A DNA stretch of 64,000 bases from Buttiauxella agrestis (GTDB taxonomy: Bacteria > Pseudomonadota > Gammaproteobacteria > Enterobacterales > Enterobacteriaceae). The translations under genes and the position numbers were made by a program. The notes beneath the pieces are model-generated. The model was not told the origin of the DNA and ran no database searches. It saw nothing but the letters and a program-made list of their open reading frames with translations. This document shows, piece after piece, positions 25,705 to 41,595 of this stretch. Where the stretch lies: the NCBI RefSeq assembly GCF_900446255.1, contig NZ_UIGI01000001.1, positions 2,878,763-2,942,762 on the forward strand, given 5' to 3'. Position 1 is the stretch's first letter, and every line of letters begins with the position of its first letter.

Positions 25705-25897
25705 CCTGTTAATTAAATGAAAGCGCATTTCTCATAAATCGAACAAATCGATAGAAACCTACATTGCGCTAACATCAATTAAACAACATATTAAAGTACA
25801 GCTGTATACAAACAACAAATAAAAACGATAATTTATCTCATTGAGAATTCCTTTCGAGCCTTCTTTAATCGCTTATAAAAGAGTACGAATAGAAAAA

Positions 25898-28132
25898 ATG
25901 GTTGTTAAAGAGCTCATTCAACATGAAGTTGCACCTGTCTGCGAACAGGAACCCCAGCTGCGTGGGGATTATCATTGGTATCATTCAATTACCGGAAAAG
26001 TTGCTATCTATCTGATGCTAGGGATTTTAATTGCCTATGGCATCGGTTCTGGCGCTGGAGTTTTTGAAGTAAACCGTATTTCGCATGAACAATGGTACAA
26101 ACAAGCCGCCACCAATTCTCAAATCACCAGTTATATTATTCGTAATATTTACACCTCCACCACGGTTACATCCAACCACGAAGGACAAGTGGTTTCTATT
26201 GAATCCGAACGACCGCTCAGTGATGATGAAACCATTATCCAAACCGGATTTAACCCGGCCGATATGCTCACTCTGGTATCAACACAAACTCATAATCCAA
26301 CCTGGTTATTGTTGTATGACAAGAAACACGGTTTTACCGACCTCAATAACACGGACGACATCTCGCAAAAAATCACCACCGCTGCGGATACCGCCAATAG
26401 ATCAGCGTTAACGGCCTATTATCGCGGCTTCGCGGATATTGGCGGCAAAGAGTATTTCGTCGGTTCGATTCCTATTGTAGACCCCTCAGGAAAGTTACTC
26501 GGTGCCGTAGTAAGCAGTATCGGAGAACGGGACGCGCTATTTGCCACCCACAATGCATTGCTGAAAAATACCCTACTGATGCTGATTTTAATCCTCGGCA
26601 TTACGGTTGTGGTGGTCAATTGGCTGGTGCGTAATCTCTTTCGCCCCGTTCCACGTCTGATTCAAGCCGTCTCACTTATCGCGGATGAAAAAACCGACCA
26701 GGTCACCCCTTTCCAGACCCAGGATGATGAAATCGGTGAACTGGCGAAAGCCATTGAAAAACTTCGTGTGGCTATGGTTGACCGGGGTTATCTGCAACGG
26801 ATGCAGGAAATGGCGCAAAAAATGGAGTACATGGCGTATCATGACTCTTTGACGCTGCTGCCTAACAGGGTTTCTTATCGAAATTCTATCGACGAGCGGC
26901 TGATAAAATTGAGAACCGAAGGCCGAATTTTCAATCTGTTGCTCATCGATTTAGATAATTTCAAACCGGTTAATGATACTTACGGCCACGTGGTTGGCGA
27001 TGAACTCCTTATTGAATCATCAGTACGTCTGTGCGCCATTATCGGTGAAAAAGATATGGCCATTCGCCTGGGCGGCGATGAATTTGCCATTCTTCAGGAA
27101 GTGCAACGCGACTCAATTCTTGAAGCACAAACGCTGGCAAGAAAAGTGCTGGCGACGCTGAACGAACCGTTCACCTGTAGCGGGAATACGTTTTCTATCA
27201 GTGGCAGCATCGGGATTTCCTGTGCTCCACAACATGGAAACACCCGTGAAGATTTATTTGCCCATGCCGATCTTGCGTTGTACACCTCTAAAAGTTTCGG
27301 CCGCAATTGTTTCCATTTCTATTCTCCGGGTATGACGATGAACCCTTCCAATAACCTGCTCTTTAGTCAGGAAATTGAGAACGGCATCAGAAATAATGAG
27401 TTTTTCCTGCACTACCAAAAGATTGTCAGCCTTGATAATTGCCGCAGCGAAGGCTATGAAGCGCTGGTCCGCTGGCAACACCCGGTTCGCGGACAACTGC
27501 AACCCCATCATTTTATTTCGGTTTCTGAAGATATAGGGCTGATTGCAAGACTTGGTGAGTGGCTGATACGCAGCGCCTGCATAGATGCGGCTAACTGGCC
27601 GGTAGCGAAAACCGTTTCAGTGAATGTTTCCCCGCACCAGCTTCGCCACCCGAGAATTTTAGACACCATTCGGAATGCCTTGCGCGACAGCGGCCTGGAT
27701 CCTGCTCGTCTGGAAATAGAAATTACCGGTTCTGAGCCGTTGGACAGAGAGATTATTCTTCCCATTCTCAATGCCATTCAGGCGCTGGGCATCGGAATTG
27801 TGCTCGATGGATTCGGCACTGGCTTTGCCACGCTCGATTACTTAATTATTTTCCCGTTCAGCCATATCAAAATTGCCCGCCCACTGATTGATATGCTCGA
27901 TAAGTGCGAGGACAGGCAGGCGTTAGTGAGTATGTTGGTTCGTTACGCGCTACAACGTGGGCTGAAAGTGACCGCTGAAGGCGTTGAAACCCAGCAACAG
28001 TATGAATTCTTGCTCTCACTGGGTGGCGTAAAAATGACGGCGCAAGGTTTTTACTTTGGCAGAGCCGTAGAAAATTCAAATGTAGTGGCAGAACTGGAGC
28101 AAGAGAAAATGGAACAACAATGTCACTTCTAA
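25898..28132 (+). CDS. Membrane GGDEF-EAL protein, predicted diguanylate cyclase with degenerate EAL
   Basis: 744 residues from ATG 25898; an upstream TTG at 25841 would add 19. Order: membrane helix (about 34-56), periplasmic sensor of about 165 residues (CACHE-like; YFVGSIPIVDPSGKLLGAVVSSI), second helix (223-244), HAMP, GGDEF domain with intact GGDEF at 392-396 and NDTYGHVVGDELL, then EAL with EAL at 521-523. The inhibitory RxxD site is GEKD, so feedback control is probably absent. The EAL domain has lost key metal ligands: ITES reads ITGS, DDFG reads LDGFG, and KID reads KIA. It should make rather than degrade c-di-GMP. Its end overlaps the first solute-binding protein gene by 13 bases. 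Confidence 0.88.
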   Translation: MVVKELIQHEVAPVCEQEPQLRGDYHWYHSITGKVAIYLMLGILIAYGIGSGAGVFEVNRISHEQWYKQAATNSQITSYIIRNIYTSTTVTSNHEGQVVSIESERPLSDDETIIQTGFNPADMLTLVSTQTHNPTWLLLYDKKHGFTDLNNTDDISQKITTAADTANRSALTAYYRGFADIGGKEYFVGSIPIVDPSGKLLGAVVSSIGERDALFATHNALLKNTLLMLILILGITVVVVNWLVRNLFRPVPRLIQAVSLIADEKTDQVTPFQTQDDEIGELAKAIEKLRVAMVDRGYLQRMQEMAQKMEYMAYHDSLTLLPNRVSYRNSIDERLIKLRTEGRIFNLLLIDLDNFKPVNDTYGHVVGDELLIESSVRLCAIIGEKDMAIRLGGDEFAILQEVQRDSILEAQTLARKVLATLNEPFTCSGNTFSISGSIGISCAPQHGNTREDLFAHADLALYTSKSFGRNCFHFYSPGMTMNPSNNLLFSQEIENGIRNNEFFLHYQKIVSLDNCRSEGYEALVRWQHPVRGQLQPHHFISVSEDIGLIARLGEWLIRSACIDAANWPVAKTVSVNVSPHQLRHPRILDTIRNALRDSGLDPARLEIEITGSEPLDREIILPILNAIQALGIGIVLDGFGTGFATLDYLIIFPFSHIKIARPLIDMLDKCEDRQALVSMLVRYALQRGLKVTAEGVETQQQYEFLLSLGGVKMTAQGFYFGRAVENSNVVAELEQEKMEQQCHF

Positions 28133-29037
28133 TCAATAATTTATATCAAGCATCAATGTCTGCCGCTGCAGCATTACTATTTTCCCTTGGTATGCTCATT
28201 CCTTCGAGCGGCCACGCGGAAGACATTTTGTCTCGCATCATCCAAAGCAAAACCATCACGCTGAGTTATCAGACAGATGTATTTCCTTATTCTTATTTCG
28301 AAAATAATAAGCCACAAGGTTATTCCATTGATATCTGCCATAAACTGATCGGCATGATTAAGCAGGAGTTAAAGCTTCCTGAGCTTCGCATCAAATGGGT
28401 TCCCGTTACCACTGCCACGCAATTTATCACCATCAAAAATAAAAGCATCGATATGGGCTGCATCCCCACGATTTACACGGCAGAAAGGCAAAAAATCGTG
28501 ACCTTTTCTGAACCGTATTTCTTCTCAGCGACCCGCTTTGTGTCGCGTATGGAAGATGATATTACGGATATTGAAGAGCTGAACGGCCATACGGTTATCG
28601 TGAAAAGCGGTACAGTGTTTGTCAGACATATCCAGGAAGCGAACGCCCAGCACCAGCTGTCGCTCAATATTGATCTCGGCACCGACAATATGAAAGCCTT
28701 TACCGAACTGGAAAGTGGCAGAACGCCGGTTATTGTCTCCAGCGACGTATTACTGCTTGCACAAATAGCGCTTTCTGGACACCCGCAAGCATTCAGGATT
28801 TCTGCGGACTCTCTCAGTCCACGGCTACCCGTTGCCATGCCGATGCAGAAAGGTAATCCTAAATTTACCGCTCTTATTAATACCTCAATGAAACATCTGC
28901 TGCGCAGTTCAGATTTCACCACGATTTATAACAAATGGTTTTTGCAGCCGATAATGCCTGAAGGGATCACGCTCAACTTGCCATTATCGCCAGAATTGAA
29001 GCAGATAATCTCATCGTCTGATCCTTACGCTTATTAA
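28120..29037 (+). CDS. Periplasmic solute-binding protein, family 3 (orphan)
   Basis: 305 residues. The signal peptide is cleaved after GHA (about residue 33). The mature protein is a type II periplasmic binding fold of the amino-acid (glutamate/aspartate) kind: ITLSYQTDVFPYSYFENNKPQGYSIDIC opening, cited as FPYSYFE and GYSIDIC, then DMGCIPTIYTAERQKIVTFSEPYFF and a C-terminal TIYNKWFLQPIMP. No ABC permease or ATPase is nearby. Its start lies inside the GGDEF-EAL gene, so the two are translationally coupled. Likely role: a periplasmic ligand-binding co-sensor for the GGDEF-EAL receptor, as NspS is for MbaA in Vibrio cholerae. The ligand is unknown. Confidence 0.82.
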   Translation: MSLLINNLYQASMSAAAALLFSLGMLIPSSGHAEDILSRIIQSKTITLSYQTDVFPYSYFENNKPQGYSIDICHKLIGMIKQELKLPELRIKWVPVTTATQFITIKNKSIDMGCIPTIYTAERQKIVTFSEPYFFSATRFVSRMEDDITDIEELNGHTVIVKSGTVFVRHIQEANAQHQLSLNIDLGTDNMKAFTELESGRTPVIVSSDVLLLAQIALSGHPQAFRISADSLSPRLPVAMPMQKGNPKFTALINTSMKHLLRSSDFTTIYNKWFLQPIMPEGITLNLPLSPELKQIISSSDPYAY

Positions 29038-29091
29038 CTATTTTTCGCTGATGTGAACAGCGAAGAGAAAGACAAACTATAAAGTCCATAC

Positions 29092-29979
29092 ATGAAACCC
29101 AAACAATTCCTGAGTTATATATTAAGTTTGTTTATGCTATTTACCGTAACTGCGGTGAAAGCAGAACCGAGTATGCCTACGCTGGAAAGAATTTCCAGCC
29201 ATAAAATCATCAATATTGGCTATCGTGATGCGCCGCCCTATTCTTATAAAACCGGTGATGGACATGTTGTTGGGTATGTCATTGAATTATGCAAAAACGT
29301 GACAGAGAGTTTGAAAAAGAACCTGCACATTAATCATCTGGAAGTTAACTATATTCCTGTGCCCAGATCCATGCGCATCACGATGCTAAAACATAATGTG
29401 ATTGATATGGATTGTTCGGTTAATACGGATACCGTAAAACGCCGAAGCGTCGTTTCGTTCTCCCGCCATTATCTGTTAGTGCAGACACGATTCGGTACCC
29501 CTGTCGGTACGAATATTCATACTTTTTTAGACTTAGCGGGCAGAACAATCAGTGTAACCAAGGGAACGGCAGACTTAATTAGTGCTAATACCCTGAATCG
29601 GGTACAGAATCTTAATCTATTTGTTTTGACTCAACCGACAATGAAAGATGCCTTTATTACTATGACTCAGCATAAGAGTTTTGCGACAGCAACGAATGAG
29701 GTTTCGCTTAAGGAACTGATTGAAAGTAGTGAACATCCTGAAGATTATCAGATGTCAGATCTGACGCTGGGTACGCCGCAAAATCTGGGCATCATGCTCC
29801 GTTATGACGATCAAGAATTCAAAAAAATAGTCGATGCCTCTCTGGCTGATCGGTTCAAGCGCCATGATTTTAAGTCATTTTATGATCAATGGTTTAATAG
29901 CGTCTTACCCGATAAAAATATCAACCTGCATCTTCCTCTAACAGCTGAAATGTATAAATACATTGCACAGGACACTTGA
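29092..29979 (+). CDS. Second periplasmic solute-binding protein, family 3 (orphan)
   Basis: 295 residues; signal peptide cleaved after VKA (residue 24). Same fold as the preceding protein (INIGYRDAPPYSYKTGDGHVVGYVIELC at the start of the mature part, cited as APPYSYK and GYVIELC; DMDCSVNTDTVKRRSVVSFSRHYL; FYDQWFNSVLPDKNINLHLPLT at the end). The two share the C-terminal layout, so they probably arose by duplication, but they differ enough to bind different ligands. Fifty-four bases after the first gene. Low similarity to true transport binding proteins and absence of a transporter favour a sensory role. Confidence 0.82.
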   Translation: MKPKQFLSYILSLFMLFTVTAVKAEPSMPTLERISSHKIINIGYRDAPPYSYKTGDGHVVGYVIELCKNVTESLKKNLHINHLEVNYIPVPRSMRITMLKHNVIDMDCSVNTDTVKRRSVVSFSRHYLLVQTRFGTPVGTNIHTFLDLAGRTISVTKGTADLISANTLNRVQNLNLFVLTQPTMKDAFITMTQHKSFATATNEVSLKELIESSEHPEDYQMSDLTLGTPQNLGIMLRYDDQEFKKIVDASLADRFKRHDFKSFYDQWFNSVLPDKNINLHLPLTAEMYKYIAQDT

Positions 29980-30538: not shown

Positions 30539-31846
30539 TTAATCACGCTCTCCATTTGTTATTGCATCAATACTTTCTGGTAACAAACGAATTTCCGCCG
30601 CGCGGCGATGAGCCTGCATTCCTTCAGTGCGACTTTGGCGGACAGCAGGTTGCGCGACGGCTGCAATTCCATGGTCATCAATCCACTGGTGGGTGCAAAT
30701 TTTCACATACGCACCAACCCATAAACCGCCGGTATAGCGAGCCGCAGCCATCGTTGGCAGTGTATGGTTGGTTCCGCAGCACTTGTCAGAGAACACAACG
30801 CTGGCATTTTGCCCGATGAACAACGAACCATAATTACGGATTTTGCTCGCCGTCGCATGTGGGTCACGGGTGTGCACTTGCAGATGTTCCGTGGCCATAT
30901 GGTCTGCCCAGGCGATGAGCTGTTCTTCGTCGCGGCAAATCACAATTTCGCCCTGACGTTTCCAGGCTTCACCTGCGGTTACTGCCGTGGGTAAATTCGA
31001 CAGCTGGCGTTCAATTTCAGCCAGCGTGGCGCGGGCGATTTGTGGACTGGTGGTCGCCATCCCGACGCGGGTATGCACATCATGTTCAGCCTGAGCCAAC
31101 AGGTCCGCAGCCAGGATTCGCGGGTCTGCGCTGTCATCCGCAATCACATAAATCTCACTTGGCCCAGCCAGTGCATCAATGCCGACTTTACCAAACACCT
31201 GGCGTTTAGCTTCGTTAACGAAGGCATTGCCCGGCCCGACAACTTTATCCACGACCGGGATAGATTCTGTCCCCCAGGCCATAGCGGCAATCGCCTGCGC
31301 GCCACCGACCTTAAAGATGCGGTGCGCCCCCGCAAGGTGGCAAATGGCTATCATCGCCGGATGCGCCCCCGGCGGCAGACAGGCAATAATCTGGTCACAT
31401 CCTGCCACTACCGCCGGGACAATTGACATTACCGGCGCGGATAAAATGGGGTAACGCCCGCCTGGCACATAACAGCCCACGGTCTGAATTGGGATAATGC
31501 GGTGCCCGAGATGCACGCCCGGCAGCGTTTCGATATCCAGCGGTTGCATGGTTGCCAGTTGCGCCTGCGCAAAGCGTTTAACCTGCGCAATGGCAAACTC
31601 GCTGTCCTTGCGCGTTTGCGGGTCGAGATCCGCCAGTGCGCTGGCAATTTCATGTTCCGAAACTTCAAATTTGTCCGGTGTGGTTTTATCAAACTTTGCC
31701 GAGTAGTCACGCAGCGCGGCATCGCCACGCTCGCGCACCTGGTCGATAATATTCTGCACCGTCTCGGTTAGCGTGCGATCCGCCTGAACATCCTGCCCCT
31801 GCGGACGTTTAATAAACTCAACATCAGCCTCAGAAATCGTTGCCAT
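30539..31846 (-). CDS. HisD-type (histidinol dehydrogenase family) dehydrogenase 1
   Basis: 435 residues. Zinc/NAD alcohol dehydrogenase of the HisD family, expected to oxidise an alcohol to a carboxylate in two steps. Family motifs GCYVPGGRYP (124-133), GAQAIAAMAWGT and [14 protein letters not shown] are present. All residues corresponding to the HisD zinc and catalytic sites are kept: Gln252/His255 in QAEH, Glu320/His321, Asp354 and His413. It is not the biosynthetic gene: no his operon genes are nearby, and it sits four bases after a SnoaL-fold gene in a LacI-regulated catabolic cluster. HpsN (dihydroxypropanesulfonate dehydrogenase) shows that relatives act on other substrates; the substrate here is unknown. 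Confidence 0.85.
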   Translation of the reverse strand: MATISEADVEFIKRPQGQDVQADRTLTETVQNIIDQVRERGDAALRDYSAKFDKTTPDKFEVSEHEIASALADLDPQTRKDSEFAIAQVKRFAQAQLATMQPLDIETLPGVHLGHRIIPIQTVGCYVPGGRYPILSAPVMSIVPAVVAGCDQIIACLPPGAHPAMIAICHLAGAHRIFKVGGAQAIAAMAWGTESIPVVDKVVGPGNAFVNEAKRQVFGKVGIDALAGPSEIYVIADDSADPRILAADLLAQAEHDVHTRVGMATTSPQIARATLAEIERQLSNLPTAVTAGEAWKRQGEIVICRDEEQLIAWADHMATEHLQVHTRDPHATASKIRNYGSLFIGQNASVVFSDKCCGTNHTLPTMAAARYTGGLWVGAYVKICTHQWIDDHGIAAVAQPAVRQSRTEGMQAHRRAAEIRLLPESIDAITNGERD

Positions 31847-31849
31847 TTC

Positions 31850-32989
31850 TTACTCCTCCATTTGTCCCAGTTTAATTTGTGCCAGCAGAGCCAGATGGTC
31901 GTAGACCACCCATTCATCAACGATTTTGCCGTTGACGATGTGATAGTGGGACATCCCCATAACGAACAGGTGCTCACCGGTCGGTTTGCCCAGCTCGCCG
32001 TAACCCAGGTGGTGGCCTTCCATGATCCAACGCACCGCCACTTTGGTCCCGCCTTCTTCGCAAGGATTGGAGCAGACATGCTGCGGCATCCACGCCCCGT
32101 CCGGGATCATGCCAATCAGCGCAAGCGTCTGGTGGATAACCGCCGCCTGACCGTACAACTCTTTCATCAGCGGACCATGCCACTGCACATTCGGGGCATA
32201 CACATCTTTGATTTTGCCGAGCATGCGACGGTTATAAATTTCGTGCAGCCAGCGCAGGCACTGCTCTTCGGTATCGGTATGCGCAATGGAAACGTCACAT
32301 TCCATTTCTGGCGGATACTGCCCGACCATGCGGCGGTTTTCGCCGATATCGGTGACGCGGAAGCCCTTATCGAACTGCTCCTTCGCCATGCCGTAGGCTA
32401 TCGCGTCGGTATCCAGACCCAACTGACGCATCATCGCCATGTTGTCGCTGACCACCCACTCGCGATAAATCTTGTTTTCGTGGATCATGCAGTCCGCCAC
32501 GGTGCGGGTCACAAACGTACGGTTAGTCGGTTTACCCAGATGGCTGTATTGAGTGTGGCGACCAGTGCCGGTTACCAGGTGGGAGGTGTAAAAACCGTCA
32601 ACGTCGTTACCATTCCAGATAACTTGCGTTGCCATACCGCGGCGTTCAGGGAAGGCAATTAAGCGCTGCAACGTATCCTGCACAACCTGCTCGCGGTTAT
32701 ACATGGTACCGAGCGCATTATATAAAACACAGTTGTGGGTATAGTGGGTGTAAATTAAACCAACGTCACGCTCGTCCCATATTTTATGGGTGCAACGCAC
32801 AATGTAATCGACAATATCCGTATAACAATCATCAAAGCCACGTAATGATTGCACGCGCGGACGTTTCTCCGGAACCAAATCAATAAAGTCACGGCGTTCC
32901 ACTTGTAAGACAGGTTCATCGCGCGTGGATTTTACATTGGTTTTTTCTGAAGCTACCGGCGTTTTATTAGTTGTTTCAGTTGAAGACAT
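31850..32989 (-). CDS. Tandem SnoaL/NTF2-fold protein 1
   Basis: 379 residues. Residues 1-45 are low-complexity and charged. Two NTF2-like domains follow: about 55-195 (TDIVDYIVRCTHKIWDERDVG, MIHENKIYREWVVSDNMAMMRQLG) and about 240-375 (LHEIYNRRMLGKIKDVYAPNVQWHGP, HYHIVNGKIVDEWVVYDHLALLAQI). The closing motif of each half, G/NKIxxEWVVxDxLA, shows internal duplication. SnoaL-like domains include isomerases, dehydratases, cyclases and hydrolases, so the function is open. AGGAGGTC precedes the ATG. Four-base gap to the HisD-type gene downstream. Confidence 0.8.
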   Translation of the reverse strand: MSSTETTNKTPVASEKTNVKSTRDEPVLQVERRDFIDLVPEKRPRVQSLRGFDDCYTDIVDYIVRCTHKIWDERDVGLIYTHYTHNCVLYNALGTMYNREQVVQDTLQRLIAFPERRGMATQVIWNGNDVDGFYTSHLVTGTGRHTQYSHLGKPTNRTFVTRTVADCMIHENKIYREWVVSDNMAMMRQLGLDTDAIAYGMAKEQFDKGFRVTDIGENRRMVGQYPPEMECDVSIAHTDTEEQCLRWLHEIYNRRMLGKIKDVYAPNVQWHGPLMKELYGQAAVIHQTLALIGMIPDGAWMPQHVCSNPCEEGGTKVAVRWIMEGHHLGYGELGKPTGEHLFVMGMSHYHIVNGKIVDEWVVYDHLALLAQIKLGQMEE

Positions 32990-33103
32990 ATGACCTCCTG
33001 CGTTATTTGATTGCGCTATGGGTATTGTCAGCGCACATTATTCAGGGATAGGAATATCCCTCACCTGCAAATGGCGATAATATTTATTTCCTGGGTTAGA
33101 TAT

Positions 33104-33128
33104 TTGGCGAGGAGATCATCCTCGCCAA
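33104..33128 (-). terminator. Strong hairpin between the two SnoaL-type genes
   Basis: Perfect ten-pair stem TTGGCGAGGA/TCCTCGCCAA with loop GATCA, ten bases after the stop of the 33138 gene. No long T-run on the minus strand (AAATATC follows), so it may be a partial terminator or mRNA-processing site that sets unequal expression of the two halves of the operon. Confidence 0.6.
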
Positions 33129-33137
33129 TAAATGTAA

Positions 33138-34109
33138 TTAATTAAAAATCTGTGACCATATCGCTAATTCATCAACACCCAGATATTCCCGGATAATTAA
33201 CCCATCGCGTAATTCCAGTTGGCTAATACCGGTAATAGAAACCGGGCGACGGGTCGGCGTACCGAATTTCCCATAACCGTCGTGCCAGGTTAACAGCGAC
33301 CAGCGCAACGAGAGGCGCACCGGTTCATTGGCATCGCGGCGCACCACCAGATGATGGAGATGCGTTTCGCTGTCGGCGAACGACGCCCGGTATCCCGAAA
33401 GAAAACCGCCGATAGCCTGCTCGCCGGTACACAACACGTGGCCTGGCCCATGCAGCGTTGCGGCGGGATGGTATAACCCCGGCACCACGCCGCTGTTGCC
33501 ACCTGCCCACATCGATAAATAGCGTTCAATCAGCCCGGCAAGTGGGCCGTCAACGTCATCACCTTCAGGGCCGCCCGCCCAGCGAGCGTCCATCTCTTCG
33601 GCACTGATATTTTCCAGCCCGGCTTCACGACGTGAATCTGCGAGTTGTCTCGCAAAATCACGCACTTCCATGCCCGTTTGCAAAATGATGGCTGCGCGGT
33701 CTTGCAATAACCACTCCTGGCACACCGCACCTTCAGCGCAAACGCGATCCGCCCAGGTGCGCACCCAAATCGATTTGCCGCTAGGTTTCCCAAAGAACCC
33801 CTCGCCCTGATGCTGGATACAGGCCACCGTGCGTTGCGCGGCGTAATATTCAAACTGCGGCGAATGGGTACAAAGAATATCTTCGGTTAGCACAGTGCGC
33901 TGCGGGAAACTGTGCATCGCTTCAAGCGTGAGCCGCATAAATTGCGACAGGTCATTGAGCTGTTTTTCCGGCGTGTTAAATACCACCGGATTGGCGTAGA
34001 AATCTGCCAGTTGGCCGATGTCTTTTTGCTCCCACACCACGTGGGTCAGCGTCAAAATAAACTGCTGGATAGAATCAAACTGAGGGCTAAAGCCCGGCAA
34101 CCTGGTCAT
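33138..34109 (-). CDS. Tandem SnoaL/NTF2-fold protein 2
   Basis: 323 residues with two NTF2-like halves: about 12-150 (FILTLTHVVWEQKDIGQLADFYANPVVFN, CQEWLLQDRAAIILQTG) and about 185-320 (LIERYLSMWAGGNSGVVPGLYHPAATLHGPG, LRDGLIIREYLGVDELAIWSQIF). It is a shorter, diverged paralogue of the protein at 31850 and may form a hetero-oligomer with it. The start codon overlaps the stop of the LacI-type regulator (ATGA), with AGGAGG inside the regulator's last codons, so regulator and enzyme are coupled. Confidence 0.78.
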   Translation of the reverse strand: MTRLPGFSPQFDSIQQFILTLTHVVWEQKDIGQLADFYANPVVFNTPEKQLNDLSQFMRLTLEAMHSFPQRTVLTEDILCTHSPQFEYYAAQRTVACIQHQGEGFFGKPSGKSIWVRTWADRVCAEGAVCQEWLLQDRAAIILQTGMEVRDFARQLADSRREAGLENISAEEMDARWAGGPEGDDVDGPLAGLIERYLSMWAGGNSGVVPGLYHPAATLHGPGHVLCTGEQAIGGFLSGYRASFADSETHLHHLVVRRDANEPVRLSLRWSLLTWHDGYGKFGTPTRRPVSITGISQLELRDGLIIREYLGVDELAIWSQIFN

Positions 34110-35176
34110 TCAACCTCCTGCGGCTGGAACAATGACAGCCCATCTTTTTCGATAACGCCAAATTGTGGCCGCCTTGCGGAATGACGCACCACCAGCACAC
34201 CGGGAACCACAACCTGTTCCGGTTCAATGTTTTCACTCTCAATCTGTTTCATCAGTAGCGCTATCGTGGCTCCGACCATGGCATCAACGGGCTGAGATGC
34301 TGACGTCAAAGAATAAGACGGCCACCCTGAAGGGCCGGTATCGTCATAACCGATGACTGAAAGATCTTCCGGAATCCGCAGGCCAAATTCGAAACGGGCA
34401 ACATCCATCACGGTGAGCGCCATATGATCGTTGGCAGCAAAAATGGCATCCGGCCGCTGTGGCGAAGAAAACAGTTCCCAGGCCGCTTTTGCGGTTTTCC
34501 TGGCATCGTAATCCCCGTGCACCACGCGGATATCCTTAATTCCGTGTTGATTTAGCGTATTAATAAACCCACTCTGCCGCGCCAGATTGACCGAAGAATC
34601 AGAAAGCCCGGCCACATAAGCAAAGTGCTGGTGCTCCCCGGCGAGCAGGAATTCAGCAATCTGTCTGGCCGCCGCTTCGTTATCGGTATTCACGCTCGAG
34701 GCTGTGGCATTTTCTTCGCTGCGATTAAACAGCACCACCGGGATCCCGGCAGCGACACACTCTTCGGAAAGCTCGACCGACAGCGAAACCGAAGCCAGCA
34801 CAATCCCGTCAACCCGGTATTGCATGATCTGGTCGAAAATCCGGTCGACGTTACCGTCGCGGTCGCCCACAAACAGCAACAGGTGGTAGTTCAGCTCATC
34901 GAGCTTTTGCGCCAGTGCTTCCAGAACCTGCGGGTAAAACTGGTTATCAAAATAGGACATCACCACACCCACAATCCTTGAGCGGGCGGTGTTCAACGAG
35001 CGGGCAATGGCATTTGGCCGATAGCCTAATTCACGCGCCGCCTTCAGCACTTTTTCACGCGTTGCCGGAGAAATACTCGCTCCAGGCGTGAAAGTGCGCG
35101 ATACCGCCGATTGTGATACTCCCGCTATTTGCGCCACTTGCTGAGAAGTCACGGGGCCAAAAGTCTTACGTTTCAT
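34106..35176 (-). CDS. LacI-family transcriptional regulator of the catabolic cluster
   Basis: 356 residues from ATG 35176 (a longer frame to 35242 would overlap a putative operator). N-terminal helix-turn-helix SQQVAQIAGVSQSAVSRTF with hinge YRPNAIARSLNTARS, then a periplasmic-binding-protein-like effector domain (VGVVMSYFDNQFYPQVLEAL, FAANDHMALTVMDVARFEFG, VIGYDDTGPSGWPSYSLTSASQP). GalR-type regulators of this build usually respond to sugars or small polyols. It is divergent from the MFS gene; two TGCATACGTATGCA-like palindromes lie between them. Confidence 0.88.
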   Translation of the reverse strand: MKRKTFGPVTSQQVAQIAGVSQSAVSRTFTPGASISPATREKVLKAARELGYRPNAIARSLNTARSRIVGVVMSYFDNQFYPQVLEALAQKLDELNYHLLLFVGDRDGNVDRIFDQIMQYRVDGIVLASVSLSVELSEECVAAGIPVVLFNRSEENATASSVNTDNEAAARQIAEFLLAGEHQHFAYVAGLSDSSVNLARQSGFINTLNQHGIKDIRVVHGDYDARKTAKAAWELFSSPQRPDAIFAANDHMALTVMDVARFEFGLRIPEDLSVIGYDDTGPSGWPSYSLTSASQPVDAMVGATIALLMKQIESENIEPEQVVVPGVLVVRHSARRPQFGVIEKDGLSLFQPQEVE

Positions 35177-35237
35177 GATTTGGTAGTCCTTATCCACATC
35201 CCTCTGGAATGCCTGTTTTTTATACTTACACCATCTT

Positions 35238-35251
35238 TGCATGCGTATGCA
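35238..35251. promoter_or_regulatory. Palindrome TGCATGCGTATGCA, probable LacI-family operator
   Basis: Fourteen bases, near-perfect inverted repeat with central CG as expected for LacI/GalR operators. It lies 62 bases before the regulator start and matches a second copy at 35327. Confidence 0.65.
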
Positions 35252-35326
35252 ACAGACAAAATTATTTTTTTCACATTTACATTATCTGCCTTTACAAAAT
35301 TGAAACCTTTTCGTAACTTCAACTTT

Positions 35327-35340
35327 TGAATACGTATGCA
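35327..35340. promoter_or_regulatory. Palindrome TGAATACGTATGCA, second probable operator
   Basis: Matches TGCATGCGTATGCA at 12 of 14 positions; consensus TGCATACGTATGCA would be a perfect palindrome. Centres are 89 bases apart, and the site is about 118 bases before the MFS gene. Together the two sites could co-regulate both divergent operons. Confidence 0.65.
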
Positions 35341-35457
35341 GAAAACAAAAAATACGCCGTCAGTTTTACCGGTGACGCAAGTTAGCGACAAAGGATTGCA
35401 CCGGTTAATGCCGTACTTGATTGGTTATAACCCATTAATATTTAAGAGGTTCACCAC

Positions 35458-36708
35458 ATGTTTCGTGCACTCTTTAGTCGATCCGAAGTCAGACTGTTTT
35501 TTACCATTAGCGTGTTGTTCTTCATTTGCATCCACAGTATCGATGCCTTCCTCGCCCCGATGTTAATCAGCGAAGGAATGCAGCCAGAAGTGGTGGGAAT
35601 GATTATGGGCGCCAGTGGATTAGCCACGTTATTTATCCGTTTCCCGATTGGCATTTTGTCGGACGTGGTGAAGAGCCGAAAAATATTTATCCAGATCAGC
35701 CTGCTGTTACCGATGGTGACATGGCCGATAGCCTACCTGGAACCCACTGCCGTGACGTTATACCTGGCGAAAGCCGCCGACGGATTCACTGCGGCGACCT
35801 GGGTTTTGTATAACATCCTGTTTATTCGCTATTTTGATAAAAAGGATGCGCCTGCTGCTGTGGCATTACTGGCACTTGCCGGGCCATTAGGGGTTTTCCT
35901 CGGCAACTGTATTGGTGGCGTGTTAATCCACTTTTTTGACAAAAACATCGGTTATTTTGTCTCAAGCGTCTCGGCGCTGCTGGCATTGATTCTCACGTTT
36001 CGCATTAAAGAATTTCACGATGCTGCCCGCGCACCCACGCTTAAAGCCTGTATTAATAGTGCGAAGCGCCAGCTCGCGGACTCTTCCGTATGGTTTATTG
36101 GCCTGCTGGCCACCATTGTTATTCTGGTGCCTTTCGCCACCCGCGATACGCTGACCCCTATTTATGCCCAACAGCTCGGCGCGAAAGCAGGTATTTTGAC
36201 CTTGCTGAGTAATATCCATTTGATCTTCTACGCGCTGGCGATAGCGATGTGTAGTTCGGTGTTTTATAAACGCCTGGGGCTGGTGAACACCGCCGTTATT
36301 GGCATTATCCTGCAAGTGATTTCCAGTATCGGCATCCCTTTCACCAGCAATATGTACCTCATCTATTTCTTACAGGCGATGGCGGGTTTCTCGTTTGGTA
36401 TGGCGTTCGCTGTGTTTATGTCGTTAAGCGTGGTGAATACGGTTGAAGATGAACAATCAACGCGCATGGGCTTATTCCAGACCATTTATTCTGTCGGCAT
36501 GTTTGTCGGCCCGGTCGCAATGGGTCTGATGTTGCAGCACATTAATTTGTCTTCCGGGTATCTGATGATTGGCGCACTGTGCGTTATTGCGGCCTTCCTC
36601 ACACCGTTGGCGGCACGCAGTGTGGAGCAGCGACAGATAAAAGCGGCGCAAAAGAATCTGCCTAAAGTTTCTTCGGCACAGGAATATGCTAATAAAACCA
36701 GCCAGTAA
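35458..36708 (+). CDS. MFS transporter of the catabolic cluster
   Basis: 416 residues, 12 predicted membrane helices. The loop 2-3 motif is FPIGILSDVVKSRKIF (about 62-77), the MFS signature G-x3-D-x2-x-R/K. Other landmarks: AKAADGFTAATWVLYNILFIRYF and AMAGFSFGMAFAVFMSLSV. A basic, hydrophilic tail of about 25 residues ends the chain. Drug:H+-like fold, but the divergent LacI-type gene and the following enzymes argue for uptake of the cluster's substrate. First gene of the plus-strand operon; the HisD-type gene follows after 94 bases. Confidence 0.82.
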   Translation: MFRALFSRSEVRLFFTISVLFFICIHSIDAFLAPMLISEGMQPEVVGMIMGASGLATLFIRFPIGILSDVVKSRKIFIQISLLLPMVTWPIAYLEPTAVTLYLAKAADGFTAATWVLYNILFIRYFDKKDAPAAVALLALAGPLGVFLGNCIGGVLIHFFDKNIGYFVSSVSALLALILTFRIKEFHDAARAPTLKACINSAKRQLADSSVWFIGLLATIVILVPFATRDTLTPIYAQQLGAKAGILTLLSNIHLIFYALAIAMCSSVFYKRLGLVNTAVIGIILQVISSIGIPFTSNMYLIYFLQAMAGFSFGMAFAVFMSLSVVNTVEDEQSTRMGLFQTIYSVGMFVGPVAMGLMLQHINLSSGYLMIGALCVIAAFLTPLAARSVEQRQIKAAQKNLPKVSSAQEYANKTSQ

Positions 36709-36802
36709 ATTTAAACCTTAATCGTTTATTTAATCCGATTCACCCCATTCACCCGCAATGCCGGGCGGGATAAACACGTATTAAAAATCACAGGAGAGCG
36801 TC

Positions 36803-38134
36803 ATGGCGCAATATTTAAAAACCAGTAAATCATTATCTGAACGCCAGCAGGCCAATAAACAGGTCAGTATTATGGTGGAAAATACGCTGGCAGATATTGA
36901 ACAACGCGGCAATCAGGCTATTCGTGAGTTATCCATTAAATTCGATAATTACGATCGCCAGGATTATCGTTTATCGCAAAGTGAAATTAATGCCTGCATC
37001 AAACAATTAAGCCGCCAGGATATTAAAGATATTGAGTTTGCCCAGCAGCAAGTTTTTAATTTTGCTACTGCGCAAAAAAGCTGCCTGACCGATCTTGAAA
37101 TCGAAACCCGCCCCGGCGTTATTCTTGGTCATAAAAACATTCCGATTAATGCCGTCGGTTGTTATGTCCCCGGTGGGAAATATCCGCTGCTGGCTTCGGC
37201 GCATATGTCGATTATTACGGCCAACGTCGCGGGTTGTTCGCGCATTGTGAGCTGTGCGCCGCCATTTAATGGTCGCCCTGCCCCGGCGATTGTCGCTGCA
37301 CAGGCGATGGCGGGTGCGTCCGAGATTTACGCATTAGGCGGTATTCAGGCCATCGGCGCGATGGCGCTCGGCACCGACACCATTGCTCCGGTGGATATGC
37401 TGGTCGGCCCCGGTAACGCCTTCGTTGCCGAAGCTAAACGCCAGCTGTTTGGCCGCGTCGGCATCGACTTGTTCGCCGGGCCAACGGAAACGCTGGTGAT
37501 TGCCGACGAAACGGTAGACGCGGAAATCTGCGCCACCGACCTGCTGGGCCAGGCCGAACACGGCGTAACCACACCTGCGATCTTGCTCACCAACTCGCTG
37601 AAACTGGCGCAAGAAACAATACGTGAAGTTGAGCGCCTGCTGACGCAATTGCCCACCGCAGAAATTGCCCGCCAGGCATGGCGCGATTATGGCGAAGTGA
37701 TTGTTTGCGACAGTTACGAGGAAATGTTGCAGGAAGCCGATCGTATCGCTTCTGAGCATGTGCAGGTCATGACCAATCGCGACGACTGGTTCCTCGCCAA
37801 TATGACCAACTTTGGCGCACTGTTCCTTGGCCCGCGCACCAATGTCGCTTACGGCGATAAAGTCATTGGCACCAACCATACCCTGCCAACGCAAAAAGCG
37901 GCGCGTTATACCGGCGGACTTTGGGTCGGTAAATTTATGAAAACCTGCACCTGGCAGAAAGTGCTGAGTGATGAAGCCTCTACAGAAATTGGCAGCTATT
38001 GCTCACGCTTGTGCCAACTAGAAGGTTTCTCGGGCCATGCGGAGCAAGCCAATATTCGCGTGCGTCGTTACGGCAACCAGGATGTGCCATACGCAGGCTC
38101 GGTTCCGGCGGCGGATATTGAGAAGGCATCGTAA
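36803..38134 (+). CDS. HisD-type dehydrogenase 2
   Basis: 443 residues, a second non-biosynthetic HisD-family enzyme. Motifs [10 protein letters not shown] (119-128) and [23 protein letters not shown], with site residues Gln250/His253 (GQAEH), Glu318/His319, Asp352 and His412 all conserved. It differs from the first copy across the N-terminal 100 residues and the C-terminus ([23 protein letters not shown]), so the two are ancient paralogues, not a recent duplication. AGGAGAG precedes the ATG. The stop shares one base with the SDR start (TAATG). Confidence 0.86.
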
Positions 38135-38901
38135 TGATGGCACTTCCTCGCACACCGGAATTCCGGCTCGACAATAAGCGGGCTTTAGTGACGGGCGGTT
38201 CTCGTGGTATCGGTTTTGCAGCAGCCTTAGCCCTTGCGCGAGCCGGGGCGCAGGTGTGGATTATTGCTCGCCAGGCGCAGCAGCTTGAGGAGGCGGTTAA
38301 CAGTGCTGCCGCAGAAGGTCTGCAATTAAACCGCCTGGCGTTGGATATTACCGATACCACTCAGGTGGGTGCTGCGTTGGCAGACCTGCCCGGTTTCGAC
38401 ATTCTGGTAAACAGTGCCGGGCTTGCGCGTCATCAGCCATTTCTTGAAGTGAGTGAAGAAAATTTTGATGCGGTGATGGCGCTCAATCTGCGGGCAACCT
38501 TCTTTATTAGCCAGCTAGTTGCACGCAGTATGAAAATGCGCCAGATCCCCGGTTCAATTATTCACATCTCCTCGCAAATGGGGCATGTCGGCGGCCCGCA
38601 ACGCAGCGTTTATTGTGCGTCTAAGTTTGCCCTTGAGGGTTTGACGAAAACAATGGCGCTGGAGTTGGGCGAGTCGGGTATTCGGGTGAATACCCTGTGC
38701 CCGACGTTTATCGAAACCGAGCTGTCGCGTGCGAATCTTGCAGACCCGGCGTTCAGTCGCTATGTGTTGGACAACATAAAGCTGAAGCGGCTGGGGACGC
38801 TGGAGGATGTGATGGGACCGGTGGTGTTTCTCGCCTCCCCCGCTTCAGCCCTGATTACCGGCACGGCATTAATGGTCGATGGCGGGTGGACAGCAACATG
38901 A
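38134..38901 (+). CDS. Short-chain dehydrogenase/reductase
   Basis: 255 residues, classical SDR. NAD(P) motif TGGSRGIG at 20-27, NSAG at 93-96, catalytic Ser147, Tyr160 and Lys164 (SSQMGHVGGPQRSVYCASK, cited as SSQ and YCASK). PTFIETELSRANL and TGTALMVDGGWTAT close the fold. Expected to oxidise or reduce a hydroxyl/ketone of the cluster substrate. Start ATG 38134 overlaps the HisD stop by one base; the next gene overlaps its stop by four. Confidence 0.88.
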   Translation: MMALPRTPEFRLDNKRALVTGGSRGIGFAAALALARAGAQVWIIARQAQQLEEAVNSAAAEGLQLNRLALDITDTTQVGAALADLPGFDILVNSAGLARHQPFLEVSEENFDAVMALNLRATFFISQLVARSMKMRQIPGSIIHISSQMGHVGGPQRSVYCASKFALEGLTKTMALELGESGIRVNTLCPTFIETELSRANLADPAFSRYVLDNIKLKRLGTLEDVMGPVVFLASPASALITGTALMVDGGWTAT

Positions 38902-39629
38902 ATACGATGCCTTTGCTGGAAAACCATCACGCGCCGCTGATTCTGCTCGGTGGGACGCTGTGTAACGGGCGGCTGTGGCAGCCGTTAAGTGAACAGTTAA
39001 ACGTCAGCTCTTTTAGCTGCATCACGCTCAGTGCGGGCAAATCGGCTCATGAGCTGGCAAGTCAGTTGCTCGCGGTTTTGCCGCCGAGATTTTGCCTGGC
39101 GGGTTTTTCACTCGGGGCAATGGTGGCTCTGCAAATGGTGGCTTTGGCTCCGCATCGAATTACCGCTCTGGCGCTGCTGTCCGTGAACCCGCTGCGGGAT
39201 TTACCCGGTAACGCGGTCGGGCGACGTGCGGCGGTGAAAGAAGCCGCACGCCTGGGAATCGCGCCGTGGCTCACGAAAACTCTCTGGCCGAAATATGTCG
39301 CCCCGCATCGTCTGGATAACGCGTCGCTTCACCAGACAATCGTACAAATGGCTGAAGAGTGCGGCATTGCGGTTTTTGCAGACCAGACTGAGGTGGCGAT
39401 TTCACGCGATGACCATCGCGCGGCTCTGGCCACGTTCCCCTCTCCGATACTCATCATCAACGGCGCGTATGACGCCATTTGTACCCATTCACATCACCAG
39501 TCGGTTGCCGCAGTCGCTCCTCATGCCCGCTGGATAACGCTTCCTGAAAGCGGCCATTTCTTACCGCTTGAAGAACCGAAACTGGCGGCCATCGCCATGC
39601 GCAACTGGATACAGGAGTCACAATCATGA
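38898..39629 (+). CDS. Alpha/beta hydrolase
   Basis: 243 residues from ATG 38898, which overlaps the SDR stop (ATGA); the longer frame to 38697 is an overlap artefact inside the SDR gene. Nucleophile elbow GFSLG with Ser71, oxyanion-loop GGTLCN, acid in INGAYD and histidine in PESGHFLP complete the triad. It looks like a small esterase, lactonase or enol-lactone hydrolase of the PcaD/MenH kind. In context it may open a lactone or cleave an ester before the aldolase step. Confidence 0.84.
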   Translation: MNTMPLLENHHAPLILLGGTLCNGRLWQPLSEQLNVSSFSCITLSAGKSAHELASQLLAVLPPRFCLAGFSLGAMVALQMVALAPHRITALALLSVNPLRDLPGNAVGRRAAVKEAARLGIAPWLTKTLWPKYVAPHRLDNASLHQTIVQMAEECGIAVFADQTEVAISRDDHRAALATFPSPILIINGAYDAICTHSHHQSVAAVAPHARWITLPESGHFLPLEEPKLAAIAMRNWIQESQS

Positions 39630-40417
39630 GAAAAAACCCGCTGAAAGCGGCCTTTCGCCAGCAGCAGCCCATCATTAATGGTTGGCTGGCAATCCCTTCG
39701 GGCTACAGCGCCGAAATCGTCGGGCATCAGGGCTATGATTCCGTCACCGTCGATATGCAACACGGCATGATTGATTTCGCCAGCGCGTTGTCGATGCTTC
39801 AGGCCATTTCGGCGACGCCCGCCACGCCGCTGGCCCGCGTGAATACCAACGAACCAGCGCAAATTATGCGCCTGCTTGATGCCGGTGCCTGGGGAATTAT
39901 CTGTCCGATGATTTCGACGGCGGAACAAGCGCAGCAGTTTGTTTCAGCCTGCCGCTACCCGCCACTCGGTAACCGCTCTTTTGGCCCGGCCCGCGCACTT
40001 TTATACGGTGGCAAAGATTACCCGCAGTATGCCAATGAAGAGATCCTGACGCTGGCGATGATTGAAACTCGTGAAGGGCTGGAAAATCTCGACGCGATTC
40101 TGGATATCGACGGGCTGGACGGCGTATTTATCGGGCCAAACGATCTTTCTTTAACGCTCACGGGAAGTGCCAGCGCCGAGTCGCAACACCCTGAAATGTT
40201 GGCCGCGATAGAGTTAGTGCTGAGTCGTTGCAAAGCACATAACAAGCTCGCCGGGATTTTTTGTACCTCAGGCCCGGCTGCGGCAAACCGTATCGCACAG
40301 GGCTTTAATTTTGTCACCCCCGCCAATGACGTTATGCAACTGGGCAGTGCGTCACGCACCGCAATCGCCGCCGCGCGGGGTGAAGCCGCGCCAACCAGTG
40401 GCGCATCTGGATATTAA
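39626..40417 (+). CDS. HpcH/HpaI family aldolase
   Basis: 263 residues, class II (metal-dependent) pyruvate aldolase. Conserved residues: His46 in DMQHG, Arg71 in LARVN, metal ligands Glu147 in AMIETREG and Asp173 in FIGPNDLS. Family members cleave 2-keto-3-deoxy or 4-hydroxy-2-keto acids to pyruvate plus an aldehyde (RhmA, GarL, HpcH). It would be the carbon-carbon cleaving step of this pathway, feeding pyruvate to central metabolism. Overlaps the hydrolase stop by four bases. Confidence 0.88.
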   Translation: MRKNPLKAAFRQQQPIINGWLAIPSGYSAEIVGHQGYDSVTVDMQHGMIDFASALSMLQAISATPATPLARVNTNEPAQIMRLLDAGAWGIICPMISTAEQAQQFVSACRYPPLGNRSFGPARALLYGGKDYPQYANEEILTLAMIETREGLENLDAILDIDGLDGVFIGPNDLSLTLTGSASAESQHPEMLAAIELVLSRCKAHNKLAGIFCTSGPAAANRIAQGFNFVTPANDVMQLGSASRTAIAAARGEAAPTSGASGY

Positions 40418-40428
40418 TAGAGGACATT

Positions 40429-41595
40429 ATGCAAAATATTACTCTGACTCAAGAAGAAGCCCAGCGCCGCCTGGTACGCCCGGAAGACCGCGTTTCCTGT
40501 AGCGTGGCATTTATCGACTGCAAACTGCCCGGCTCACACCTCAAACAAAACTATTCCTTTATTGGCCCAGGCGTGACGCAATCGGCTTCGCAAGTGGTGA
40601 ATATTCCTGAGCCGCACGGCTTTAATATCGGTGCGGCGGCGATGCCAAAAGGCGTGACCAACAATCTGCATCTGCATTTCACCGCCGAAGTGTTTTTGAT
40701 TCATGAAGGGAGCTGGCGTTTCCGCTGGGGCGCCAATGGCGAGCATCAGGCTGAATTCAGCGCACCCGCCATTTTGTCTATCCCAACGTGGATTTTCCGC
40801 GGTTTTACTAACGTCAGCCCGAGTGATACCTGCGGCATGGTGTTCACCGTTTTGGGGGGCAATAACACCGGCGGGATTATCTGGCATCCGTCGATACTTG
40901 AGGCCGCAAGCGAATATGGTTTGTATCTGAGTCGCGACAATATGCTGATTGATGTCGAGGCCGGTGACAAACTGCCCACGCAATCCGAGCTATTGCAGCC
41001 GCTGGGGGCGGAACATATCGCCGCGTTGCGCGATTATTCAATAGAGGAAATGAGCCAGCGCGCCGTGACGGGCGAGCAGCGAACATGGTCGGCAAACGCT
41101 CTGTTGGATTCTGTTTTGCCAGGACACGGTGGCGAACTGGCGCCGGTGATTGGCTACGGAATTTCACAAGACCTGCATAACGCGCCGCCAATTCTGAATC
41201 CGCATGGTTTCTCTGTGGAGTGGCTGCGCATTCAGGAGCAGCATCGTGTTGGGCTACATTTCTGCCCGGACGTTCAGGTGCTGATGGTGTTTAAAGGAAC
41301 GCTGGGAGTCACGTGGAATCGAGCGGGTGAAGAAGTCACGATTGTGGCTGAAGAAGGTTCGGTAATTTCAGTTCCTGCCAATAGCTGGCGTCAGTACCGG
41401 GCGCTGGATGGCGTGATGGAAGCCACGCTGACCACTCAGGGCGATCATCGTAAAAAGATTTACTGGGATGCGGAAATTATTGAGCAAGCGCTGGAGCGGG
41501 ATCGCTGTCTCGATCCCGATGGCTACGTGGCAACGGCAAGTATCCTGCCTGCAACCGCGCGCCGGGCGGGTGAGAAAATAGCTCGCGCCGTTTAG
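40429..41595 (+). CDS. Bicupin protein
   Basis: 388 residues with two cupin domains. The first has a perfect metal motif G-X5-HLH-X3-E-X6-G at residues 75-94 (His81, His83, Glu87). The second (about 245-350; HRVGLHFCPDVQVLMVFKGTLGV) keeps the fold but lacks a full HxH set. Bicupins include gentisate-type dioxygenases and sugar-acid isomerases; the overall sequence is not one I can assign. Last gene of the plus-strand operon, 11 bases after the aldolase, with AGAGGAC before the ATG. Confidence 0.8.
   Translation: MQNITLTQEEAQRRLVRPEDRVSCSVAFIDCKLPGSHLKQNYSFIGPGVTQSASQVVNIPEPHGFNIGAAAMPKGVTNNLHLHFTAEVFLIHEGSWRFRWGANGEHQAEFSAPAILSIPTWIFRGFTNVSPSDTCGMVFTVLGGNNTGGIIWHPSILEAASEYGLYLSRDNMLIDVEAGDKLPTQSELLQPLGAEHIAALRDYSIEEMSQRAVTGEQRTWSANALLDSVLPGHGGELAPVIGYGISQDLHNAPPILNPHGFSVEWLRIQEQHRVGLHFCPDVQVLMVFKGTLGVTWNRAGEEVTIVAEEGSVISVPANSWRQYRALDGVMEATLTTQGDHRKKIYWDAEIIEQALERDRCLDPDGYVATASILPATARRAGEKIARAV

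Follow-up and report, generated by a model that had tools for sequence, protein, structure and literature searches.

What compound do the ten genes at positions 30539-41595 of a 64,000-nt stretch of Buttiauxella agrestis DNA (the window, meaning here the whole stretch) serve to break down, and do they form one system? An initial annotation had read them as a catabolic cluster without a characterised counterpart. Profile searches recovered all ten genes and families where it had placed them, with two start codons reset, and we found no description of the cluster in the openly licensed PubMed Central literature, where no paper contains both "ester cyclase" and "histidinol dehydrogenase". The genes form two divergent arms flanking lacI, the left one running lacI, SnoaL-B, SnoaL-A and HisD-A, and the right one a major facilitator superfamily (MFS) transporter, HisD-B, a short-chain dehydrogenase (SDR), an alpha/beta hydrolase, an HpcH/HpaI aldolase and a bicupin. 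Our analysis makes it likely that this is a LacI-controlled, two-module catabolic regulon for an imported small molecule with a carboxamide and one or more (probably two) hydroxymethyl groups open to oxidation. The gene set, of which the window carries one copy, is widespread across Pseudomonadota and apparently undescribed.

We scanned GTDB r220 with one genome per species (84,980 species), which returned 254 stretches encoding relatives of SnoaL-A; the best 80 were kept, 30 of them Enterobacterales-like and 50 others, mostly from alphaproteobacteria. In the window, a LacI-type operator pattern, TGNATRCGTATNCA, is found twice between lacI and the MFS gene, as two 14-bp sites (O1 and O2 in Table 1). 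The exact pair recurs in 27/30 Enterobacterales-like loci with a spacing of 88 to 90 bp, and the pattern or its complement accounts for 103 sites in 59/80 loci (29/30 Enterobacterales-like and 30/50 others). Over the same 80 loci the reversed pattern gave 0 matches and ten Markov simulations gave 0 to 1. In the 50 non-enterobacterial loci all of the sites (44/44) are intergenic with respect to the genes detected: 21 separate divergent HisD-A and SnoaL-A genes, 15 lie between amidase and HisD-B genes, 7 before the hydrolase and 1 before SnoaL-A. Where the arms are separate operons, the operator often precedes both, and because it recurs in this way the two arms look like one regulon.

The operator also extends beyond these loci. 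With a slightly looser pattern, 777 kb of sequence from 36 more distant loci yielded 13 sites, against 0 in the control. These come from Priestia, three Deinococcus, two Ruegeria, Paracoccus and two further genomes. Thirteen regulators that we compared are 31 to 81% identical to the window LacI and carry a VSQSAVSR-type recognition helix, from which those of Priestia and Roseomonas each depart by a single change. A CG-centred, near-palindromic predicted operator stands beside lacI and the putative target promoters, the arrangement expected of a LacI regulon. In the marine set, a search for shared perfect palindromes gave no second operator.

Gene content, called by six-frame profiles and counted in loci of at least 20 kb (25 of the 30 Enterobacterales-like and 36 of the 50 others), is largely retained. 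HisD-A, lacI, SnoaL-B and MFS are each present in 25/25 Enterobacterales-like loci, followed by HpcH (23), SDR and hydrolase (22 each), bicupin (21), HisD-B (20) and an amidase (11). Among the 36 others, in which gene order and strand vary, we detected lacI in 34, HisD-B in 32, SDR in 29, HisD-A and bicupin in 28 each and RraA or HpcH in 26, with at least one HisD-type gene in 35/36; CUT1 ABC or TRAP systems occur in other clusters. The window's SnoaL-A agrees with that of B. agrestis at a rounded 100%, one difference being visible, and G001, the closest of the genomes searched, has 36% of the window's sampled words in common with it. SnoaL-A itself is at least 63% identical across 13 gamma- and alphaproteobacterial sequences, and related, more distant sets lie on Deinococcus and Priestia plasmids. 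The bicupin profile exceeded 300 bits in 23/398 genomes sampled from the phylum. Within one genus of 227 genomes (that of genome G538, taken as Vibrio because G789 and V. pelagius have SnoaL proteins 99% identical to each other), the bicupin occurs in 29 and SnoaL in 32, and 29/29 bicupin genomes have SnoaL (Fisher 1.3e-33, shared ancestry ignored). The shared operator, the conserved neighbourhood and this co-occurrence together support the earlier proposal of a single coherent, co-regulated set.

The initial gene list, however sound in its families and coherence, looks incomplete without an amidase. Searching eight genomes with the operator, we found sites outside the lacI-MFS gap as well, and in G001 and G066 one stands upstream of an amidase gene far from the cluster. 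An ortholog search at E 1e-80 in 14 genomes, 13 of which carry SnoaL-A, found this amidase in 10. In G001, G189, G066 and G051, where the amidase gene is unlinked or placed separately, an exact site precedes its aligned start by 13 to 103 bp. The G069 and G241 copies belong to the MFS-side gene run, where an operator separates them from the next genes. No operator lies within 1.5 kb of the copies placed after hisDA (G033, G042, G196 and G057). In the non-enterobacterial loci the amidase accompanies HisD-A, being present in 22/28 loci with HisD-A and 2/8 without (Fisher 0.009, shared ancestry ignored). Three Deinococcus plasmids have a nitrilase-type C-N hydrolase in its place; for the one that was searched, formamidase and aliphatic amidase models are the nearest, though weak, matches. 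Another such hydrolase lies near a Vibrio-like set. Because the same operator precedes unlinked copies and other copies sit within the operon, the amidase is probably a missing member of the pathway, and it argues for a nitrogen-bearing substrate. The initial annotation had suggested a polyol, a deoxy-sugar or a side chain with a primary alcohol, any of which may or may not apply.

Several observations weigh against a single regulon that includes the amidase. The exact operator is absent from 20/50 non-enterobacterial loci and likewise from the clusters of Novosphingobium, Roseibium and Martelella, and a Klebsiella cluster lacks it although the helix of its LacI is the same. A common recognition helix, and with it a common operator, need not mean that LacI proteins serve one pathway. 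Two further exact sites are unaccounted for, one behind an amidase gene (G001:C32:49796) and one inside an unrelated open reading frame (G069:C8:116331). Linkage is also incomplete: of the 36 non-enterobacterial loci, 24 have an amidase within 10 kb and just 8 a detected alpha/beta hydrolase, while G020, G251 and G259 have SnoaL-A and no amidase at E 1e-80. Finally, the amidase is known from genomes other than that of the window.

The two HisD-type dehydrogenases both have the PF00815 fold and catalytic region (Table 1) and share the GTNHxLPT region with histidinol dehydrogenase (HisD), so the family assigned at the outset stands; by published motif, however, they are neither histidinol nor 2,3-dihydroxypropane-1-sulfonate (DHPS) dehydrogenases. 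According to PMC11382572, the substrate motifs are GSAPL in HisD and GRY(A/S)H, with the sulfonate-binding His126, in the (R)-DHPS-3-dehydrogenase HpsN. GSAPL is absent in the window, where HisD-A reads GRYPI and HisD-B GKYPL; across the two groups GSAPL and GDY of HisD are replaced by (R/K)(Y/F)P and (G/S)DK. His126 is absent from the 72/77 HisD-A and 66/68 HisD-B motifs read (5 and 2 were unread by the pattern). In our tree HisD-A and HisD-B are two clades separate from housekeeping HisD, which has SAPL in 5/6 copies (1 unread; 2 more were left out of the tree), and from the DHPS dehydrogenases. Housekeeping histidine synthesis was rejected, as G001, G042 and G066 each have a third, separate hisD.

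Could the cluster instead degrade DHPS or another organosulfonate through an HpsN-like enzyme? The nearest PDB relatives of both proteins are indeed DHPS dehydrogenases, 8v35 (sulfopropanediol 3-dehydrogenase, 400 bits) for HisD-B and, narrowly, 8wwe (312 bits, against 297 for E. coli HisD) for HisD-A, and both keep the Lys after the zinc-binding Asp. The hps cluster (PMC11382572) resembles ours in its HisD fold, the active-site D-K pair and the neighbouring oxidoreductase and MFS genes, and differs in that the window enzymes have no His126 equivalent, carry a K/R-(Y/F)-P motif and come as two clades per cluster, and in that sets of the window type add SnoaL, bicupin, aldolase and amidase. Moreover, G622 and G669 have separate GRYSH copies and no gene annotated as a sulfolactate lyase was noticed in the annotated neighbourhoods. 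Given that the sulfonate-binding His is missing from every HisD-A and HisD-B motif read, we rejected a sulfonate pathway as highly improbable.

While coherent, as first described, the cluster consists of two modules, and the right-hand one is also found where the left-hand one is missing. Rhizorhabdus wittichii RW1 has the bicupin, hydrolase and HpcH without SnoaL, and a Klebsiella plasmid has the same three genes together with HisD, SDR, MFS and lacI, again without SnoaL. The RW1 aldolase is Swit_5035 (PDB 6r62), the hydroxyketoacid aldolase SwHKA, to which the window aldolase is identical at 115/251 aligned positions; in both cases hydrolase and bicupin genes of matching kinds flank the aldolase gene. 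The RW1 stretch differs in holding SDR, hydrolase, aldolase and cupin between IS4-family genes. In the marine plasmids of Thioclava and Vibrio pelagius and in one further genome, the bicupin, HpcH and hydrolase genes lie beside otnK and genes for OtnC-like aldolase and OtnI-like proteins. From the roles of the enzymes, such neighbours would need 2- or 3-oxo-tetronate formed without a dehydrogenase. The marine rhodobacterial-type sets have HisD-B, lacI, SnoaL-B, a cupin and RraA in most stretches, and usually SDR and a MetE-like gene; neither HisD-A nor the amidase was detected in the stretches compared. The binding protein of a transporter from a relative gave one weak match, 5iai.

Two side observations come from these distant sets. 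The Vibrio pelagius plasmid (L107, L120) has four SnoaL genes and a CUT1 transporter beside sarcosine oxidase genes, more than 100 kb from its bicupin-HpcH-hydrolase-otn set. In Roseomonas sp. OT10 (L110, 8652-9815) a flavin adenine dinucleotide (FAD) enzyme of the N-methyl-tryptophan-oxidase type is encoded directly upstream of a SnoaL gene.

The right-hand module would end in aldol cleavage. The aldolase scores 121 bits with PF03328 (cut-off 25) and falls below the NCBIfam equivalog cut-offs for HpaI (196/369 bits), GarL (152/407) and RhmA (156/441). In alphaproteobacterial clusters its place is taken by an RraA-type protein, akin to the RraA and LigK-PcmE family of 4-carboxy-4-hydroxy-2-oxoadipate (CHA) aldolases; this family differs from the window HpcH in belonging to PF03737, not PF03328, and its NCBIfam LigK match is far below cut-off. 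RraA relatives include aldolases for tertiary 4-hydroxy-2-oxo acids. Because RraA replaces HpcH elsewhere, and because of the otn neighbours, there is a hint that the aldolase substrate is a 4-hydroxy-2-oxo acid with a tertiary alcohol.

The same enzymes would also suit a sugar acid, polyol or amino-polyol that bears an amide or lactam and is degraded by a pathway of the KduI/KduD type, in which the bicupin would be a ketol isomerase, the SDR a ketose-acid dehydrogenase, the hydrolase a lactonase and HpcH a 2-keto-3-deoxy acid aldolase. This sugar-acid or amino-polyol route is plainer than the mycosporine route considered below, and we hold it as a tentative alternative. Models for gluconate 5-dehydrogenase and KduD match the SDR, and those for GarL, RhmA and HpaI match the aldolase, in every case below cut-off; relatives have CUT1-type sugar transporters. 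SwHKA converts pyruvate analogues including hydroxypyruvate (PMC10099721), and the accessible part of that article does not name its native pathway. On the other side, the replacement of HpcH by RraA and the lack of an annotated tetronate dehydrogenase next to the otn genes would point to a ketone product and not an aldehyde. We know of no SnoaL pair in a sugar-acid pathway.

The "bicupin" call rests on predicted structure because the protein narrowly misses the Pfam Cupin_2 cut-off (26 against 27.2 bits). The predicted structure shows two cupin barrels (predicted local distance difference test score, pLDDT, 92), and in a fold search it is closest to OxdC, vicilins and quercetinase; KduI/IolB is not among the 50 fold matches listed and gave no Pfam match. 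It shares 11-13% identity with the OxdC and quercetinase bicupins, and a PDB sequence search gave only weak matches to designed barrels, at E 0.06 or worse. In the N-terminal barrel, H81-x-H83-xxx-E87 is invariant in 30 sequences, but the 3-His-1-Glu site is incomplete, since an equally invariant Arg, R124, stands where the fourth ligand, a His, is expected (positions assigned from the sequence). A shorter alphaproteobacterial cupin belongs to the same family (hhalign E 5e-69, 31% identity). SnoaL-A is modelled as a tandem of two SnoaL domains, and the model supports the SnoaL fold; its closest fold matches are polyketide cyclases, with ketosteroid isomerase (KSI) and limonene epoxide hydrolase (LEH) among the matches listed.

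From the observed gene content, co-conservation, shared operator, amidase link in relatives, protein families and catalytic motifs, we infer the direction of the pathway, the order of its steps and its substrate. The MFS protein would import the compound, which itself or as a derivative would release LacI from O1 and O2. The amide would be hydrolysed by the amidase, whose gene, linked or not, is under the same operator. HisD-A and HisD-B would each consume two NAD+ in oxidising a CH2OH group beside an O- or N-bearing carbon to a carboxylate. Acid-base chemistry (isomerisation, elimination or hydrolysis) may fall to the SnoaL pair, after which the SDR, bicupin and hydrolase would turn the skeleton into a 4-hydroxy-2-oxo acid, to be split by the aldolase into pyruvate and a carbonyl compound.

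One substrate class that would use all of these activities but the SDR is the C7 cyclohexenones of the mycosporine or gadusol type, ultraviolet sunscreens of fungi, cyanobacteria, algae and fish eggs. In a glutaminol-like side chain, HisD-A would then oxidise the amino-alcohol CH2OH and the amidase would act on the carboxamide; the SnoaL proteins would act on the cyclohexenone, HisD-B would oxidise the ring CH2OH and the bicupin would open the ring with O2. The hydrolase would cleave the resulting ester or diketone, and the aldolase would split a tertiary 4-hydroxy-2-oxo acid into pyruvate and oxaloacetate (for gadusol, 3-oxo-tetronate). We regard this substrate class as rather unlikely; the full route, with a terrestrial form (HisD-A, amidase and SnoaL pair) that strips a glutaminol-type side chain and a shared core that opens the oxidised ring, seems to us improbable. 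With a glutaminol side chain, one HisD-type enzyme and the amidase would have a role, and the marine variants without detected HisD-A or amidase, most with a MetE-like gene, fit methoxylated mycosporine-like amino acids (MAAs) without glutaminol. SnoaL-fold enzymes such as KSI, which SnoaL-A matches in fold, act on cyclohexenones. By derivation, a ring whose CH2OH is oxidised first gives pyruvate and oxaloacetate, and gadusol gives as its cleavage product the 3-oxo-tetronate that would suit the otn genes adjoining bicupin, HpcH and hydrolase; ligK_PcmE is among the weak RraA matches, far below cut-off. Against this, nothing links the cluster directly to any MAA, the SDR has no obvious role, no enzyme for the ring C-N bond is evident, and the CUT1 and LacI families are usual for sugars. 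Furthermore, within 10 kb the amidase comes without HisD-A in two of the 36 non-enterobacterial loci, and HisD-A without the amidase in six. Routes from ascorbate, pantothenate, pyridoxine, opines, iminosugars and chloramphenicol were set aside from general knowledge alone, as they offer no fitting enzymes. We keep to the broader reading of a carboxamide with oxidisable hydroxymethyl groups.

The features of the locus are collected in Table 1. Starts and stops had been described as overlapping within each arm: overlaps of 1-4 bp do join HisD-B, SDR, hydrolase and HpcH, as well as SnoaL-B and lacI, but gaps of 148 bp and 94 bp separate SnoaL-B from SnoaL-A and MFS from HisD-B. A sigma-70 scan gave fewer sites than shuffled sequences and none in the lacI-MFS gap. 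The next gene after the right arm is pykF, named from a sequence match.

Table 1. Genes and predicted operators of the cluster, in window coordinates
Feature	Position	Strand	Evidence
HisD-A, zinc/NAD four-electron alcohol dehydrogenase family, clade A (GGRYPIL ... SDK)	30539..31846	-	PF00815, 470 bits; own clade in tree
SnoaL-A, two SnoaL/NTF2-like domains	31850..32989	-	Pfam, model, fold match
SnoaL-B, two SnoaL stretches	33138..34109	-	Pfam; 22% identity to SnoaL-A
LacI-family regulator, helix AGVSQSAVSR	34106..35176	-	profile matches
LacI-type operator O1 TGCATGCGTATGCA (predicted)	35238..35251	.	sequence pattern
LacI-type operator O2 TGAATACGTATGCA (predicted), 89 bp from O1	35327..35340	.	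sequence pattern
MFS transporter, probable uptake system	35458..36708	+	PF07690
HisD-B, HisD/HpsN-family dehydrogenase, clade B (GGKYPLL ... GDK)	36803..38134	+	PF00815, 454 bits; tree
SDR, YxxxK present, usually adjoins HisD-B	38134..38901	+	
Alpha/beta hydrolase, GFSLG nucleophile elbow	38898..39629	+	weak BioH and enol-lactonase model matches
HpcH/HpaI class II pyruvate aldolase	39626..40417	+	PF03328; 46% identity to SwHKA
Bicupin	40429..41595	+	predicted structure, conserved N-terminal motif

Elsewhere in the window, a single open reading frame at 24108-25559 fuses the end of a phosphotransferase system (PTS) EIIC domain to an EAL domain, and at 25841-29979 two tandem SBP_bac_3 periplasmic-type proteins are encoded after a GGDEF-EAL gene, with an overlap of 13 bp. 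Among other genomes, Enterobacter hormaechei subsp. hoffmannii DSM 14563 (L040, 10001-11137) has a SnoaL-A gene with one internal stop, the remaining cluster genes being detected. The cluster of the stink-bug symbiont Pantoea sp. Eser (L078) is fragmented, with split bicupin, HpcH, lacI, SnoaL-A and HisD-A genes; SDR and hydrolase were not detected there, which looks like decay. In Chryseobacterium sp. 18061 (L035) and Citrobacter sp. 18056 (L036), lacI, MFS, SnoaL-B, SnoaL-A and HisD-A are present and HisD-B through bicupin were not detected within 10 kb; the label of the former looks wrong, as the same contig occurs in a genome of Buttiauxella's family.

Taken together, these results describe two clades of HisD-type dehydrogenases without an assigned function, whose members public records label histidinol dehydrogenase, and they give the biocatalyst SwHKA a likely native gene context. 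As the amidase illustrates, a short operator motif can retrieve missing members of a pathway. The set is found in dozens of the genomes examined, including those of Enterobacter, Pantoea, Rahnella, Devosia, Sinorhizobium and marine relatives. Because it is carried so widely and SnoaL-A relatives are encoded in 254 GTDB stretches, the substrate is probably common in nature.

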